Assembly: GCA_020631315.1 (NCBI GenBank)
Contig: JAHDHM010000083.1
Span: 1-11,157, forward strand
Source of the DNA: Acidimicrobiales bacterium
GTDB taxonomy: Bacteria > Actinomycetota > Acidimicrobiia > Acidimicrobiales > Poriferisodaliceae
Length of the DNA stretch: 11,157 bases
Direction of reading: 5' to 3'
The position numbers and the translations under genes were made by a program. Of the stretch, positions 1 through 9,349 are shown in pieces. Every line of letters starts with the position of its first letter. The stretch's first letter is position 1. The notes beneath the pieces are model-generated. The model worked only from the letters and a program-made list of their open reading frames with translations. It was not told where the DNA came from and did no database searches.

Positions 1-2928
1 CACGACCTCGTGTCGTTCCTTGAGGGTCTCGAACTCCTGGAGCGCCAACGGGTTGATCGGGCCCATCTGCTTGAGGTCGCGTTCGAGCTCGCGCACACGG
101 CCGGCAGCAGTGGCGCCTGCCGGCAGCTCCGGCAGTTCGGCGGCCAGTGCGGTGTCCGGATCGGCGTCGAGCTCGGTCCGGATGGCGTGGAGCAGGGTCT
201 CGAGGCGCAGGGTGAGCTCGGCGTCGCCGACGTCGAGCTTGGCGATGGCGTCACGATGGCGATCGAGCTCACCGTCGAGCTGCGAGCGTCGCCCTCGAAG
301 CCCGTCGAGTTCCGACGCGACGGCCCGTGTGGCCTCCGACGTGGCGCGACGCTTGGCCCGGAGGCGCTCGAGCTCGACCGTCACCACGGCGGTGCGGCCG
401 TCCACGAAGGTCGCGAGACGATCCACAGCGGCCAGACGACCGTCGAGCCGAACTCGGCGTTCGGCTGCGACGGCGACCTCGTGCTCGTGCTCGACGAGCC
501 GCTGACCGATCTCCTCGACGCGAGCGGTGAGGCCCTCGCGCCGCTCCTCCAGCGCCGCTGCTCGCACACCGAGGTCACTCCGCAGCGCCGCGACGGCGCG
601 AGCCCGGTCGTCGAGCTCACCGCGACGACGGTCGAAGTCGTCGGCGGTGGAGCGATCCGACTGTTCGCGCTCTTCGAGCGCCGGGAGCACCGCCTCCAGC
701 TCTGACACCTGCTCGGCGTCTCGACCGATCTGCTCGGTGAGCTCGTCGTGTCGTTCCTGAACGGTCGAGACCTCGTTCACCGCATCGGCTCGGGCCCGCT
801 CGGCCCGTTCGAGCGCTTCGGTGGCGCGGTTGACCGCAGCGTCGTGCTCGTCGAGCGCGCGACGTGCGTCGTCGCGAGCACCCTTGGCGGCGGCAACGCT
901 GACGCGGGCCGCCTCCGAGGTCATCGACGAGAGATCGAGGGCCTCGCGGGCCTTCTCGACCTCGGACATCGCTTCGTCGTGAGCGGCGCGCGTGGCACCC
1001 GAGCCGCCGGCGCCGATCCGCCAGCCAGTGGCACCGAAGCGGTCGCCCGCGGTCGTCACCACGACGGCTGCGGGGTTCCGCAGCGCGAGGTCGAGTGCAT
1101 CGGACCAGCGACCGTCGACCACGACAGCGCTGCCGACGAGGCGATCCACGAGCGGCCCGGCGGACGGGTCGATGGGCCGGACGTGCTCACGCAGTGACGC
1201 GCCGCCGTCGATGGCCGGCAGCGCAGGGACGGCGCCGCCGAGCGCCAACACGGCACCTCGCACCTCGGAGCGCTCCAGGTGCTCCAGGGCCTGCCGGGCG
1301 GCATCGCCGTCACGCACGACGACCGACGCCATCGCATCACCGACGGCGGCTTCGAACGCCTGCTCGTAGCCGGCGTCGATCTCCACCAGGTCGGCGACCG
1401 TGCCGACGACACCGTCGACACCGTCGAGCCGTTCGACACCTGCGTTGGCACGCACCTCGTCGAGCGCGAGACCGAGCGCCTCGGCACGAGCAGTCCACCG
1501 GTCGACCTCCGCCGTTGCCGCTCGGACTGCGTCGGACGCCGCCGAGGCAGCGGACTCGGCCTCGGCGAGCCCCTCGGTCGCGGTGTCGAGCGCAGTGACG
1601 AGGCCGTCCTCGGCCTCGGTCTGCTCGGCCAGCTTGCGCCGCAGCTCCTCGGCCTCCTGGCGTCGTTCGACCTGCGCCGTCTCGAGTGCCGCCATCTTCT
1701 CGTCGAGCCGGGCACGTTCGCGCTCGGCTCTGGCGACGGAGTCGCGGATGGCACGCAGCTGGCCTCGGACCTCGGCGGCCCGACCGGAGACGTCGGGGAT
1801 GAACCCCTCCCGCTCGTCCTCGAAGGCCTTCTGCTCGATGACGAGCTGCTCCTCGCGCTCCACGAGCTGGTCGACCTCGGGAGTCAGCGCGAGCGCAGCG
1901 TCCTCGACCACGGTCAGCTGGTGACGGACCTCGGCACGCTCGGCCTCGAGGCTCGCGACGAGATCGTCGGCCAGCGCAGCACTGCGGTCTCGTTCGAGGC
2001 CGCGGCGGCGTTCCGCGAGCACGGCGGTGAGGCCGAGGCAGCGTTCGCGCAGCGACTCGTAGCGCGGCAGTGCATCGCCGACGTCGTCGCCCACCGCCGC
2101 CAACCGAGCCTCGGCAGCGACGATCTTCACGTCGAGCTCGGCGAGTTCGGCACGGATCTTCGCGTCGTCCTCACGCAGCCGCGCACGCTCGGACTCGCTG
2201 GCCTCGAGCCGCTGACGCCGGTCGCGCAGCTCGCGTCCGGCGAGGTAGAGCTTCAGCGCCTGCAACTCGGCCAGCACATCACCATGGCGGCGAGCCGCGT
2301 CGGCCTGCTGCTCGAGTGGTCGGAGCTGACGACGCACCTCGCGCTGGAGGTCCTGCAGGCGCAGCAGGTTCGCCTCGGTCGCGTCGAGACGGCGCTGCGC
2401 CCGCTCCTTGCGACGTCGGTACTTGAGGATGCCGGCGGCCTCCTCGACGATCAGCCGCCGCTCCTCCGGTCGAGCATTGAGCGCCTGGTCGATCTGGCCT
2501 TGGGCGATGATGATGTGCTGCTGCCGGCCGACACCTGCATCCGACAGCAGCTCCTGGATGTCGAGCAGGCGACACGCCACACCGTTGAGCGAGTACTCCG
2601 AGTCACCCGAGCGGTACAGCACACGAGTGATGGTGACCTCGTTGAACTCGACCGGCAGCAGTCCCGCCGTGTTGTCGAGCACCATCGACACCTCGGCGCG
2701 CCCGAGGGCCGGCCGATTCGCCGTGCCGGCGAACACGACGTCGTCCATCTTCTGGCTTCGGACGGTGCGCGGGCCTTGGGCACCGAGCACCCAGGCGATG
2801 GCGTCGACGACGTTGGATTTGCCCGAGCCGTTCGGCCCGACGACCACGGTGACGCCTGGTTCGAAGTCCAGGACGGTGGTGTCGGCGAAGCTCTTGAAGC
2901 CCTTGATGGTCAGTGACTTGAGGAACAC
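1..2928 (-). CDS. smc: Chromosome segregation ATPase SMC (3' end outside window)
   Basis: This is the SMC subunit of condensin, a DNA-loop-extruding ATPase that compacts and segregates chromosomes with ScpA and ScpB. The window holds the first 976 codons, open to base 1 without a stop. The GTG start gives the usual opening VFLKSLTIKGFKSFAD. Walker A GPNGSGKS is at about residues 31-38. The Q-loop region and the conserved EEAAGILKYRRRKERA block follow. A long charged coiled coil occupies about 165-495, the hinge about 497-640 (GVVGTVADLV through GWRIGAGGSG), and the returning coil lies after it. The visible part ends just after GPINPLALQEF, so the signature motif, Walker B and D-loop lie to the left of the window. 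It begins 80 bp after the mutM-like gene, with no clear Shine-Dalgarno, and is probably cotranscribed with it. Confidence 0.97.
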   Translation of the reverse strand, partial: MFLKSLTIKGFKSFADTTVLDFEPGVTVVVGPNGSGKSNVVDAIAWVLGAQGPRTVRSQKMDDVVFAGTANRPALGRAEVSMVLDNTAGLLPVEFNEVTITRVLYRSGDSEYSLNGVACRLLDIQELLSDAGVGRQQHIIIAQGQIDQALNARPEERRLIVEEAAGILKYRRRKERAQRRLDATEANLLRLQDLQREVRRQLRPLEQQADAARRHGDVLAELQALKLYLAGRELRDRRQRLEASESERARLREDDAKIRAELAELDVKIVAAEARLAAVGDDVGDALPRYESLRERCLGLTAVLAERRRGLERDRSAALADDLVASLEAERAEVRHQLTVVEDAALALTPEVDQLVEREEQLVIEQKAFEDEREGFIPDVSGRAAEVRGQLRAIRDSVARAERERARLDEKMAALETAQVERRQEAEELRRKLAEQTEAEDGLVTALDTATEGLAEAESAASAASDAVRAATAEVDRWTARAEALGLALDEVRANAGVERLDGVDGVVGTVADLVEIDAGYEQAFEAAVGDAMASVVVRDGDAARQALEHLERSEVRGAVLALGGAVPALPAIDGGASLREHVRPIDPSAGPLVDRLVGSAVVVDGRWSDALDLALRNPAAVVVTTAGDRFGATGWRIGAGGSGATRAAHDEAMSEVEKAREALDLSSMTSEAARVSVAAAKGARDDARRALDEHDAAVNRATEALERAERARADAVNEVSTVQERHDELTEQIGRDAEQVSELEAVLPALEEREQSDRSTADDFDRRRGELDDRARAVAALRSDLGVRAAALEERREGLTARVEEIGQRLVEHEHEVAVAAERRVRLDGRLAAVDRLATFVDGRTAVVTVELERLRAKRRATSEATRAVASELDGLRGRRSQLDGELDRHRDAIAKLDVGDAELTLRLETLLHAIRTELDADPDTALAAELPELPAGATAAGRVRELERDLKQMGPINPLALQEFETLKERHEVV

Positions 2929-3008: not shown

Positions 3009-3845
3009 TCAGACCTGGTAGTCGCAGTAGTAGTGAGTTTGTCCGCCGGTGCGGAGCTTCTGGACCTCGCCACGGCCGTTGCGCGAACGCTGTCCGGCGC
3101 GCCCGTAGACCTCGAGGTACTCGGTGAAGCCACCGGGGTTCCCGAACACGTCGACGAACGGATCGTTCTCGAGCGTCGTGCCGCGCTGCTTGATGGCGTT
3201 GTGCATCATCTCGACGATCGCACGGTTGAGGCGTCGGATCTCCTGGATCGTGATGCTCTCGGCGGTGCGGTCGTAGCGCAGCAACGCTGCGTGGAGGATC
3301 TCGTCGGCGTACACGGGGCCGATGCCGACGATGAACGAGTCGTCCATGAGCAGAGTGCGCAGCTTCTGGTTGCCGCGTGCTCGGAGGTTCTGGCCGAAGG
3401 TCGTCCACGGAATCTGATCGTCGACCGGGTCGAAGCCCTCAGCCGCCGGGAGGATCTCGCCGAGGTCGTCGGTCGGGGCGAGCCGGACCGAGGTGCTCGA
3501 CTCGTCACCGGTGAGCAGACGCAGCTGGCCGCCCTGGGTGAATGTGATCGTCATCACGGTGCCGTCTTCGGCCGCGTCCTTGTTCGCGTGTCGGCGCAGC
3601 GAGCCGCCGGGGCCGAGCGTGAACAACAGCGAGTCGTCGTCGCTCAGGTCGACGATGATCGTCAAGCCCTGACGGCGGACACCGAGGACCTTGCGACCCG
3701 ACAGTGCGGTGGCGAAGGCCGGCCGCGAGGCCGCACCGTCGAACATCGACGCCGCGCCGGTGATCTCGGTCTCCTTGACCTTTCGACCAGCGATCTCCTT
3801 GTCGAGATCGCGGCGGACCAGTTCGGCCTCTGGAAGTTCGAGCAT
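3009..3845 (-). CDS. Fpg/MutM-family H2TH protein lacking canonical catalytic and zinc residues
   Basis: This is a 278-residue homologue of formamidopyrimidine-DNA glycosylase (MutM/Fpg), the normal length for the family. The N-terminus MLELPEAE aligns with MPELPEVE and keeps the Glu, but Leu2 replaces the proline that forms the Schiff base. The helix-two-turn-helix region is clear at about 164-184 (LLMDDSFIVGIGPVYADE). By alignment to E. coli Fpg, Lys56, His70, Asn168 and Arg258 correspond to Gly60, Thr76, Pro177 and Gln269. In the zinc-finger region (about 246-278) only Cys274 of four cysteines remains, with Ser254, Gly257 and Gln277 at the others. Its position between rnc and smc is that of fpg in related genomes. 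The ATG shares its A with the rnc stop (TGATG), implying translational coupling. Family membership is secure, but base-excision activity is doubtful. A DNA-binding or altered-specificity role is possible. Confidence 0.88.
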   Translation of the reverse strand: MLELPEAELVRRDLDKEIAGRKVKETEITGAASMFDGAASRPAFATALSGRKVLGVRRQGLTIIVDLSDDDSLLFTLGPGGSLRRHANKDAAEDGTVMTITFTQGGQLRLLTGDESSTSVRLAPTDDLGEILPAAEGFDPVDDQIPWTTFGQNLRARGNQKLRTLLMDDSFIVGIGPVYADEILHAALLRYDRTAESITIQEIRRLNRAIVEMMHNAIKQRGTTLENDPFVDVFGNPGGFTEYLEVYGRAGQRSRNGRGEVQKLRTGGQTHYYCDYQV

Positions 3846-4561
3846 CAGCGGGTTCCCGGGGTGTGTTGAGTCGATTCTTGTGCGAGCAAGGCAGCGTGGG
3901 CCGAGGCCGCGGCGTCCTGCTCCGCTTGTTTCTGGGTGCGTCCGCCGCCCTCGCCGTAGAGAGCACCGCCGAGCGACACCGTCGCCACGAACCAGCGTTC
4001 GTGGTCGGGTCCCTCGCCGGACACGCTATACAGCGGCGGAGCGTCGAAGTGCCGGGCCGCCAACTCCTGGAGCCGCGTCTTGTGGTCGTGGCCGCCTGGC
4101 CCGAGTGCGGCTTCGGCGATCCGGCTGCCGAGCACCGGCAAGACGAACGACTGTGCCGCAGCCCAGCCACCGTCGATGTAGACCGCTCCGACGACCGCCT
4201 CGAAGGCATCTGCGAGGATCGAGGTCTTGGTGCGACCCCCGCTGCGTTCCTCGCCGTTGCCGAGCAGCAAGGCCGTACCGATCTCGAGCTCGGCGGCCAC
4301 CGCGGCCAACGTGTGGGTGTTGACCACCGCGGCACGCAACTTGGCCAGCGAACCCTCGTGCAGGTCGGGGAACCTGCGATAGGTGTCGTCGGTCACGATC
4401 AGGCCGAGGACGCTGTCGCCCAGATACTCGAGGCGTTCGTTCGACGGCACGCCACCGTTCTCCGAACACCACGAACGGTGCGCCATCGCGCGCTCCAGCA
4501 GGCCCGGGTCGACGAACTCGTGACCCAGACGCGCAGCGAGCGACGCGAGCTGTTCGTTCAG
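3845..4561 (-). CDS. rnc: Ribonuclease III
   Basis: RNase III is a dimeric, Mg-dependent endonuclease that cuts double-stranded RNA, chiefly in rRNA precursors and structured mRNAs. The signature NERLEYLGDSVL is at residues 41-52, and the second acidic pair lies in SILADAFEAVVGAVYID. A C-terminal dsRNA-binding domain ends in YGEGGGRTQKQAEQDAAASA. The first in-frame ATG, at 4486, would remove the leading helix that the family has before AHRSW. I therefore extend to CTG at 4561, giving 238 residues. That codon overlaps the acpP stop (CTGA), and no ATG, GTG or TTG was found in frame between it and 4486 or just upstream. No Shine-Dalgarno is obvious, so coupling to acpP translation is the likely mode. 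Identity is certain; the start codon is an inference, and 4486 is the conservative alternative. Confidence 0.9.
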   Translation of the reverse strand: MNEQLASLAARLGHEFVDPGLLERAMAHRSWCSENGGVPSNERLEYLGDSVLGLIVTDDTYRRFPDLHEGSLAKLRAAVVNTHTLAAVAAELEIGTALLLGNGEERSGGRTKTSILADAFEAVVGAVYIDGGWAAAQSFVLPVLGSRIAEAALGPGGHDHKTRLQELAARHFDAPPLYSVSGEGPDHERWFVATVSLGGALYGEGGGRTQKQAEQDAAASAHAALLAQESTQHTPGTR

Positions 4562-8540: not shown

Positions 8541-8610
8541 CCGATCCTGCTGTACCCACTCGGATCGGACCGAGTCCGATCCTGCTGTACCCACTCGGAT
8601 CGGACCGAGT
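8541..8610. repeat. Two perfect 35-bp tandem repeats with dyad symmetry
   Basis: Copy 1 is 8541-8575 and copy 2 is 8576-8610, identical over all 35 bases. Each holds ACTCGG and CCGAGT separated by 6 bases (8558-8575 and 8593-8610). Across the junction an 8-bp dyad, GGATCGGA / TCCGATCC with a 5-base loop, spans 8562-8582. The repeat fills the space between the divergent start regions of rsmD and the small plus-strand gene, so it could be a duplicated operator or simply a recent tandem duplication. No T-run accompanies the dyads, which argues against a terminator. Confidence 0.95.
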
Positions 8611-8620
8611 CCGGCCCTGG

Positions 8621-8632: not shown

Positions 8633-8809
8633 ATGGCTTCGCCGATTCCGACCACCATCCGCTGTGTCGACTGCGGCGGTACCTGCCACGTCATCTCGTT
8701 CGTCGAGCTCGCCGACCTGGTGCCCGGCGACGTGGTGGCGTTCCGCTGCGAGGACTGCATGGATCGCTGGGACATCGAGGTCACCGAAGAAGACCTCGCC
8801 GGAGGCTGA
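8633..8809 (+). CDS. Small CxxC protein of unknown function
   Basis: This 58-residue protein starts MASPIPTTIR and carries two CxxC pairs, C11-VD-C14 and C39-ED-C42, plus Cys18 and His19. That spacing fits a small zinc ribbon with a 24-residue loop between the knuckles. The second half is acidic (DIEVTEEDLAGG). There is no signal peptide or membrane helix. I do not recognise the family. The frame is open upstream to 8363, but that would run through the tandem repeat and antisense to rsmD, so the ATG at 8633 is chosen. It is the first plus-strand gene of the island, divergent from rsmD. Coding status rests on the paired cysteines and plausible composition. A role in RNA or protein binding would be a guess. 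Confidence 0.65.
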   Translation: MASPIPTTIRCVDCGGTCHVISFVELADLVPGDVVAFRCEDCMDRWDIEVTEEDLAGG

Positions 8810-8908
8810 ACGCCGAATCGTCGAGCTCGAACACATGACGCCGTGGGCGAGGGCGAACAGCCGCGCAGAGTTGGGCGAGCCGCTCCGCGGATCGGGCAGA
8901 CTGTCCGG
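8810..8908. other. Spacer between the two plus-strand genes
   Basis: Ninety-nine bases without a gene I can support. A GTG at 8843 could extend the next gene by 22 residues (MGEGEQPRRVGRAAPR), but that composition looks like read-through of non-coding GC-rich DNA. It appears to hold only the start region of the downstream gene. Confidence 0.45.
8897..8902 (+). promoter_or_regulatory. Putative -10 element of the membrane protein gene
   Basis: CAGACT sits 6 bases before ATG 8909. With the element before 8633, eleven of fifteen bases including the ATG match (CATGCTGTCGGCATG against CAGACTGTCCGGATG). No ribosome site is present. The promoter reading is an inference. Confidence 0.3.
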
Positions 8909-9349
8909 ATGTCCAACGACGCCGCAGCCGGCCACGAGCCGATGGAACCGCAGTACTTCCGACTCAAGCGCTGGATCCGCATCATCCAGATGGTGAGCGG
9001 CAGCCTCGTGATCGCTGTCGGTACCGCCAACATCGTCGGCGGCAGCCCGCTCATCGGCATCCTCTTCCTCGCGTTCGGCATCTACGCGATCGGCCAGGTC
9101 GTGTTCGCCGTCGTGATCGCCACCGAAGAGGGCCTGCACGTGCGGTTCAACTTCCCGAAGGCCAAGTTCCACGCCTGGGAGGACATCGCCTACGCGCCGG
9201 ACACCCGGGTCCTGATGATCCGCAAGACCGACGACACGATGGTGCGGGTGCCGCCCTACCTCGAAGACCTCGGCGAGCTGCGCTCCATGATCGACGACAC
9301 CGTGGGCCTGCCCCCGGCCGCCCAACCGTTGCGGCGCAAGAAGAAGTAG
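8909..9349 (+). CDS. Two-helix membrane protein with PH-like C-terminal domain
   Basis: This 146-residue protein has a short N-terminal cytoplasmic stretch (MSNDAAAGHE), two hydrophobic helices at about 25-45 (IIQMVSGSLVIAVGTANIVGG) and 48-71, and a soluble domain at about 72-135. That domain reads like a bacterial PH-like fold: alternating strands (LHVRFNF, VLMIRKTDDTMVRVPPY) with a conserved tryptophan in FHAWEDIAYA, and a terminal helix (LEDLGELRSMIDD). The tail is basic (LRRKKK). The ATG at 8909 is preferred over GTG 8843, because the extra residues look non-coding. The specific family and function are not recognised; similar two-helix PH proteins are common in Actinobacteria and lack an assigned role. 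The stop abuts the recG stop on the opposite strand with no base between. Confidence 0.82.
   Translation: MSNDAAAGHEPMEPQYFRLKRWIRIIQMVSGSLVIAVGTANIVGGSPLIGILFLAFGIYAIGQVVFAVVIATEEGLHVRFNFPKAKFHAWEDIAYAPDTRVLMIRKTDDTMVRVPPYLEDLGELRSMIDDTVGLPPAAQPLRRKKK

Follow-up and report, generated by a model that had tools for sequence, protein, structure and literature searches.

The window analyzed here is the whole 11,157-nucleotide stretch of contig JAHDHM010000083.1. Its minus strand encodes a homolog of the DNA repair enzyme Fpg (formamidopyrimidine-DNA glycosylase, or MutM) that has lost the standard active-site residues. The gene sits in a slot between rnc, which encodes RNase III, and smc (Table 1). 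Its ATG overlaps the stop codon of rnc (TGATG at 3847-3843), and smc begins 80 bases beyond its end. The order of genes on the minus strand, from Pfam and NCBIfam, is RecG-like helicase, RsmD-like methyltransferase, CoaD, a coiled-coil-like open reading frame (ORF), YceD, L32, PlsX, acyl carrier protein, rnc, the Fpg-like gene, and smc. Several of these gene names are what we presume from the matches.

Table 1. Features of the rnc-Fpg-smc region in the window
Feature	Positions	Strand	Basis
Fpg-fold protein without the standard active site (MLELPE...CDYQV)	3009..3845	minus	278 amino acids; ORF, Pfam, alignment, predicted model
Leu2 codon, in place of the Pro nucleophile	3840..3842	minus	sequence and alignment
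Leu61 codon, aligned with E. coli Lys56	3663..3665	minus	coordinate computed from ORF start
Helix residues 201-219 (QEIRRLNRAIVEMMHNAIK), with retained Q/E/R/R/R/E/K face	3189..3245	minus	predicted helix 200-219; column conservation
Zinc-finger region, three of four Cys lost (SRNGRG...YYCDYQV)	3012..3086	minus	alignment
rnc (RNase III)	3845..4561	minus	ATG ORF 3845-4486; TIGR02191 2.3e-60 on that ORF
smc, downstream neighbor, cut by window edge	1..2928	minus	SMC_N 8.4e-38 (Pfam)

The protein matches the Pfam domains Fapy_DNA_glyco (3.2e-15) and H2TH (8.5e-16). Structure prediction, which the first-pass annotation had proposed, gave an Fpg fold with the N-terminal sandwich and H2TH, as well as a long C-domain helix at residues 200-219. 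The protein does not reach the cutoffs of curated models for Fpg (147.2 versus 203.3 for TIGR00577 and 155.3 versus 212 for NF002211) or for Nei/endonuclease VIII (38.9 versus 252, and 29.4 versus 400 for NF040775).

We aligned the window protein by sequence with E. coli MutM (the E. coli residue is given first). The nucleophile P1 is replaced by L2. All four residues that grip the lesion phosphates are lost (K56 to L61, H70 to T76, N168 to P177, and R258 to Q269), and so is the void-filling triad (M73 to P79, R108 to D114, and F110 to S116). The first-pass annotation had identified Leu2, Thr76, Pro177, and Gln269 correctly, but it matched Lys56 with Gly60, which is the conserved glycine just before the lysine position. 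It also missed the loss of three zinc-finger cysteines (C243 to S254, C246 to G257, and C266 to Y276); only C263, which is C274 in the window protein, is left. The catalytic glutamate (E. coli Glu2) is kept as Glu3, and Glu6 is kept too; as that annotation had stated, Glu3, the H2TH region, and the full length are all retained. An alternative start that would give an N-terminal proline can be ruled out: the upstream frame reads ...THPGNPLMLELPE, and no nearby start supplies one. Because both the proline and the lysine are lost, the standard chemistry is very unlikely, and from the sequence we are fairly confident that glycosylase/lyase activity of the standard kind has been lost.

The same losses recur in related proteins. 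A protein search gave 1104 matches, and the family figures that follow are for the best 120 of these, including the window's own protein. Among six recognition residues (K56, H70, M73, R108, F110, and N168), none is kept in 116 of the 120 and one is kept in the other 4. Position 2 is Leu in 59, Ala in 27, Phe in 12, Tyr in 8, Pro in 5, Arg in 5, and Asn and Val in one each, with two gaps. One zinc ligand is left in 100 proteins and none in 20. Since these losses recur across the 120 proteins, they are not due to chance. A second set of residues is retained: R193, E202, R204, R205, R208, and K219 are present in 120/120, D232 and R258 in 119/120, and E212 in 107/120. (These numbers are those of the window protein, and this R258 is distinct from the lost E. 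coli Arg258, which corresponds to Q269.) Conservation is strong overall: 35 columns do not vary among 27 diverse members, and the genome matches listed in a family-profile search included none with an internal stop. The taxa named for the homologs are Actinobacteria, Actinomycetota, Acidimicrobiaceae, Acidimicrobiales, and Poriferisodalaceae; from these names, the class is probably Acidimicrobiia. The public names, where given, are only "formamidopyrimidine-DNA glycosylase," "DNA-formamidopyrimidine glycosylase family protein," and "hypothetical protein," which bears out the suggestion of a known but uncharacterized subfamily. We found no description of such a family among the matches listed in open-licence full text, and a search of that text for formamidopyrimidine with Acidimicrobiia found no paper.

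We then ran two models against 148 genomes of the class and considered the matches listed. The family profile matched 122 genomes, and TIGR00577 found 112 places above its cutoff in 111 genomes. The protein in the rnc-linked slot was read residue by residue in 78 genomes: all six recognition residues are present in 59, and at most one in the other 19 (hereafter, eroded), with no intermediates. In all 19 eroded genomes, rnc lies close upstream, and smc lies downstream in 18 of them within the stretch read. A second Fpg that passes the model and has all six residues is found elsewhere in 17 of the 19 eroded genomes, and all 17 of these copies also have the four cysteines. Among the matches listed, no second Fpg was found in the 94 non-eroded genomes above the TIGR00577 cutoff; each has one listed place. 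These places were read in two batches, of 59 and 35, and in every case the stretch read includes rnc, smc, or both on the strand of the Fpg gene, at a spacing that sometimes leaves room for another gene. We regard the pseudo-Fpgs of the rnc-linked slot as a real, conserved subfamily that is associated with another Fpg outside the slot. The check for a second, canonical mutM that had been proposed for the window thus came out positive in related genomes. For example, the slot protein of G001 is 70% identical to the window protein over its length, and this genome has six H2TH genes. The five besides the slot gene all open with MPE, and among them is a canonical Fpg around which the stretch read shows neither rnc nor smc.

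Of the other 35 genomes among the 148, 19 (most of them about 1 Mb) gave no TIGR00577 match, nine fell just short of the cutoff, six gave only weaker matches, and the last is G116. Five of the nine just under the cutoff were read, and in these Fpg adjoins rnc. G116 was considered as an eroded case and dropped: its slot gene is split between contigs, and the two pieces look canonical. The scan also turned up other variants. The slot Fpg of G128 (L026/L108) has all six recognition residues and one of the four zinc cysteines, and L054 and L059 have Asp in place of the second zinc cysteine. A further Fpg-like subfamily (L004, L125, L126, L128, L133, and L134) opens with PE-[IM]-[LI]-E or MPELIE and reads DPRRLG and GNL in place of the RRFG and GNI of Fpg. 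Five genomes (G039, G063, G099, G106, and G110) have no Fpg above the TIGR00577 cutoff, only other H2TH proteins; rnc was located in all but one of them.

Because many eroded proteins still keep the proline and/or the four cysteines, the recognition residues seem to have been lost first, and the proline and the zinc finger later, in either order. Proline and four cysteines are both present in G115, G111, G021, G017, G143, G025, G022, G011, and G005, and also in G103. Four cysteines are accompanied by Ala at the proline place in G016, G057, G107, and G119 and by Met in G056. The proline is kept and the finger broken in G088 and G096, and both are lost in G001 and G076. Overall, Pro1 is lost in 7 of the 19 eroded genomes and the zinc finger in 4.

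In a 115-row tree built with the trait columns masked, the eroded proteins lie inside the slot lineage, with three state changes, and the second copies lie in two other groups. The window protein is in the slot by position and falls among the slot proteins in the tree. A reduced tree of 84 slot proteins has four state changes, and it rejects a single eroded clade (30 rows versus 54; approximately unbiased test, p-AU 0.028). Without G103 and G056, a single clade is not rejected on the slot tree (p-AU 0.229), so we dropped the idea of three separate erosions. A tree of the neighbors rnc and smc (46 rows) has eight changes, five of which are forced by well-supported branches, and it rejects a single eroded clade at 2e-39. 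More than one erosion is supported by these comparisons.

What the eroded proteins have retained suggests a second role. The combination of R193, E202, R204, R205, R208, and K219 is complete in 19/19 eroded slot proteins and in 34/35 of their canonical sisters in the slot (29/30 sister rows and five near-duplicates, G097, G146, G085, G049, and G136, which were counted as sisters by resemblance and not by the tree). It is found in 0/24 distant canonical slot rows and 0/17 second copies, and it is absent from E. coli. G060, which lies just outside the clade, lacks only K219 of the six. E212, D232, and R258 are also present in most of the nearest canonical slot MutMs. Since the combination is present in the canonical sisters, it predates the erosion. 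By their spacing in the predicted helix, residues 201, 205, 208, 212, 215, and 219 would share one face. The lesion-chemistry columns are relaxed in the eroded proteins. As for charge, the window protein has a net charge of -7 and an isoelectric point (pI) of 5.3, versus means of +6.4 and 9.1 for 30 canonical sister proteins; the mean charge of the window's family is -3.9 (35 rows). The ratio of nonsynonymous to synonymous substitution rates (dN/dS) was 0.231, 0.036, 0.041, 0.143, and 0.116 for five eroded pairs (a sixth was not computable) and 0.068-0.175 for six canonical pairs, by simple NG86 counts with dS mostly above 1.

The explanation that we favor, and consider probable, is that the slot protein is a pseudo-Fpg with a non-catalytic second role, with repair left to an unlinked Fpg. 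In this explanation, the window gene descends from the rnc-linked MutM of its class, and the canonical slot MutMs nearest to it already hold the conserved set, mostly on one face of a C-domain helix and in the finger loop. This set would support a second, non-catalytic binding role. In a lineage with a separate canonical Fpg, base excision would be left to that copy, and the slot copy would then lose lesion recognition (K56, H70, M73, R108, F110, and N168). In some lineages Pro1 or the zinc finger has gone as well, and in the window's branch so has the basic charge. What persists is the predicted fold, the position close to rnc and smc, and the second set of residues. That the second role is older than the erosion we suggest only tentatively. 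It is likewise possible, although we lean slightly against it, that the rnc-linked MutM is bifunctional in a large part of the class, with its non-catalytic role carried by the conserved face of the C-domain helix, and that more than once a separate Fpg assumed repair and left the slot protein with the second role alone. That the partner is an operon neighbor (RNase III or SMC), or else a nucleic acid bound away from the former cleft, is only a guess.

Several observations weigh against this explanation. First, although the combination count favors a second role, the results for single residues and for charge weaken it. Single members of the set are not exclusive: E. coli has R193, E202, and R208, and R193 occurs in every one of the 29 other-slot rows (a group that includes the five near-duplicates of sisters). 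E212 is lost in 1/19 and D232 in 4/19 of the eroded proteins. The retained patch could also be a network of salt bridges inside the protein. Nor is the shift toward acidity a general one: mean charge is -1.9 over the 50 main eroded rows (range, -10 to +8) and +9.5 over the rows of G107, G119, G103, and G056, one of which includes an untrimmed stretch. Second, we dropped the idea that clade-specific residues are better kept on average: column-averaged retention in the 50 eroded rows is 0.66 for clade-specific columns and 0.66 for universal ones, as sorted with the 29-row distant group that includes the five near-duplicates, and in the G107, G119, G103, and G056 rows it is 0.58 versus 0.68. Because averaged retention is equal, the case for a second role rests on the named subset of residues. 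Third, the association with a second Fpg has exceptions. G103 and G056 (1.5 and 1.7 Mb) are eroded, and no model-passing Fpg was found in them besides the slot protein. Arg258 is missing from 4 of the 17 second copies (G022, G017, G011, and G005), and the second copy of G022 has Thr at the proline place, which leaves its start or activity unsure. In a kinship-aware test of erosion against second copies, four pairs were for the association, none against, and one tied (p = 0.125); the direction agrees with the co-occurrence, but the pairs are too few. Fourth, E3 is kept in 117 of the 120 family proteins, which is odd for a dead active site. Finally, the slot-protein tree and the rnc and smc tree conflict on kinship, which could reflect parallel erosion with attraction of fast-evolving rows or swapping of slot alleles.

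Other explanations fare less well. A sensor of lesions or structures, or a nucleic acid binder, that does not cut and that holds the backbone with the retained Arg/Lys face is unlikely. It would fit the retained H2TH region and the basic residues of the set (R193, R204, R205, R208, K219, and R258), and roles other than lyase exist, as the apurinic/apyrimidinic (AP) lyase activity of Nei2 is dispensable in psoralen crosslink repair (excerpts of PMC11323726). Against it stand the loss of residues from the former DNA groove, the acidity of the window protein, and the presence of conserved acids (E202, E212, and D232) in the patch. Of the three roles that the first-pass annotation had offered, the pseudoenzyme fits best, and the lesion sensor is weakened, with both the phosphate grip and the triad gone.

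The third of those roles, a working glycosylase with a different mechanism, appears quite unlikely. Such an enzyme would be monofunctional: water activated by Glu3 would take the place of the Schiff base, and the target would be another lesion or structure. The near-invariance of Glu3, Glu6, and Glu8 in the listed family is in its favor. But the phosphate grip, the void-filling triad, and the zinc finger are also gone, and in the 50 main eroded rows the lost recognition positions show no single replacement above 60% other than Pro at the Asn168 place (78%). Mutants of Mycobacterium smegmatis Nei2, whose Lys51 we take to be the counterpart of the lost Lys56, point both ways. P2A retains 5-hydroxyuracil glycosylase activity, but P2C and K51A lose glycosylase activity (excerpts of PMC11323726). 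Last, a gene on its way out, briefly held by its operon position, would account for the many lost active-site residues but is highly improbable given dN/dS of 0.04-0.23 in the five computable pairs, the invariant columns, and the lack of internal stops among the genome matches listed, in agreement with the original judgment that this is not a decaying pseudogene.

Among known systems, canonical Fpg/MutM (E. coli MutM; 1r2y and 1k82) shares with the window protein the whole (predicted) fold, the length, H2TH, and Glu3, and mycobacterial fpg1 shares the place beside rnc (excerpts of PMC2734929). Unlike canonical Fpg, the window protein lacks Pro1, Lys56, His70, Met73, Arg108, Phe110, Asn168, Arg258, and three of the four zinc cysteines, and it is acidic. 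Mycobacterial Fpg2 (Rv0944) is, like the window family, a non-standard Fpg homolog beside a canonical one; it is truncated in M. tuberculosis, where the N-terminal part is missing, and its M. smegmatis homolog is complete (excerpts of PMC2734929). In contrast, the window protein is full length, in the rnc slot, and has point losses. Zincless-finger Fpg/Nei proteins, which are active enzymes with an N-terminal nucleophile, also have a finger without the four cysteines. They include plant and fungal Fpg, NEIL1, and Mimivirus Nei (excerpts of PMC3188539). The reading frame of NEIL3 lacks an N-terminal proline, as does that of the window protein. A valine is exposed in NEIL3 by removal of the encoded preceding residue. 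This valine is at the nucleophile position (excerpts of PMC11323726), whereas 75 of the 100 listed family proteins with a clean start have Leu, Phe, Tyr, Arg, or Asn as residue 2. M. smegmatis Nei2 acts in vivo without AP lyase chemistry and is thus a precedent for a role in this superfamily without it, but it retains Pro2, Glu3, Lys51, and the four-Cys zinc site (excerpts of PMC11323726), and it belongs to another subfamily, as the NF040775 score of the window protein indicates.

Elsewhere in the window, the N-terminal helix of RNase III is encoded without an ATG, GTG, or TTG; by eye, the homologous frame can be read up to a CTG at 4561, which overlaps the acpP stop (CTGA, 4558-4561) and may be the start of rnc. 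A 35-base perfect direct tandem repeat (2.1 copies, 8541-8613) adjoins the RsmD-like gene and is spanned by an imperfect inverted repeat. On the plus strand, an ORF at 8843-9349 (168 amino acids) has no Pfam match, and a second plausible gene, in another frame, ends at 8809.

The slot proteins of this class, 59 of them intact and 19 stripped, amount to a natural separation-of-function series for Fpg. Should the second role be real, it would be testable in a protein that is usually treated as purely a base-excision enzyme, the name DNA-formamidopyrimidine glycosylase that automatic annotation gives these genes would mislead, and the pseudo-Fpgs would uncover a function hidden in a textbook repair enzyme, perhaps one that links RNase III, SMC, and repair.
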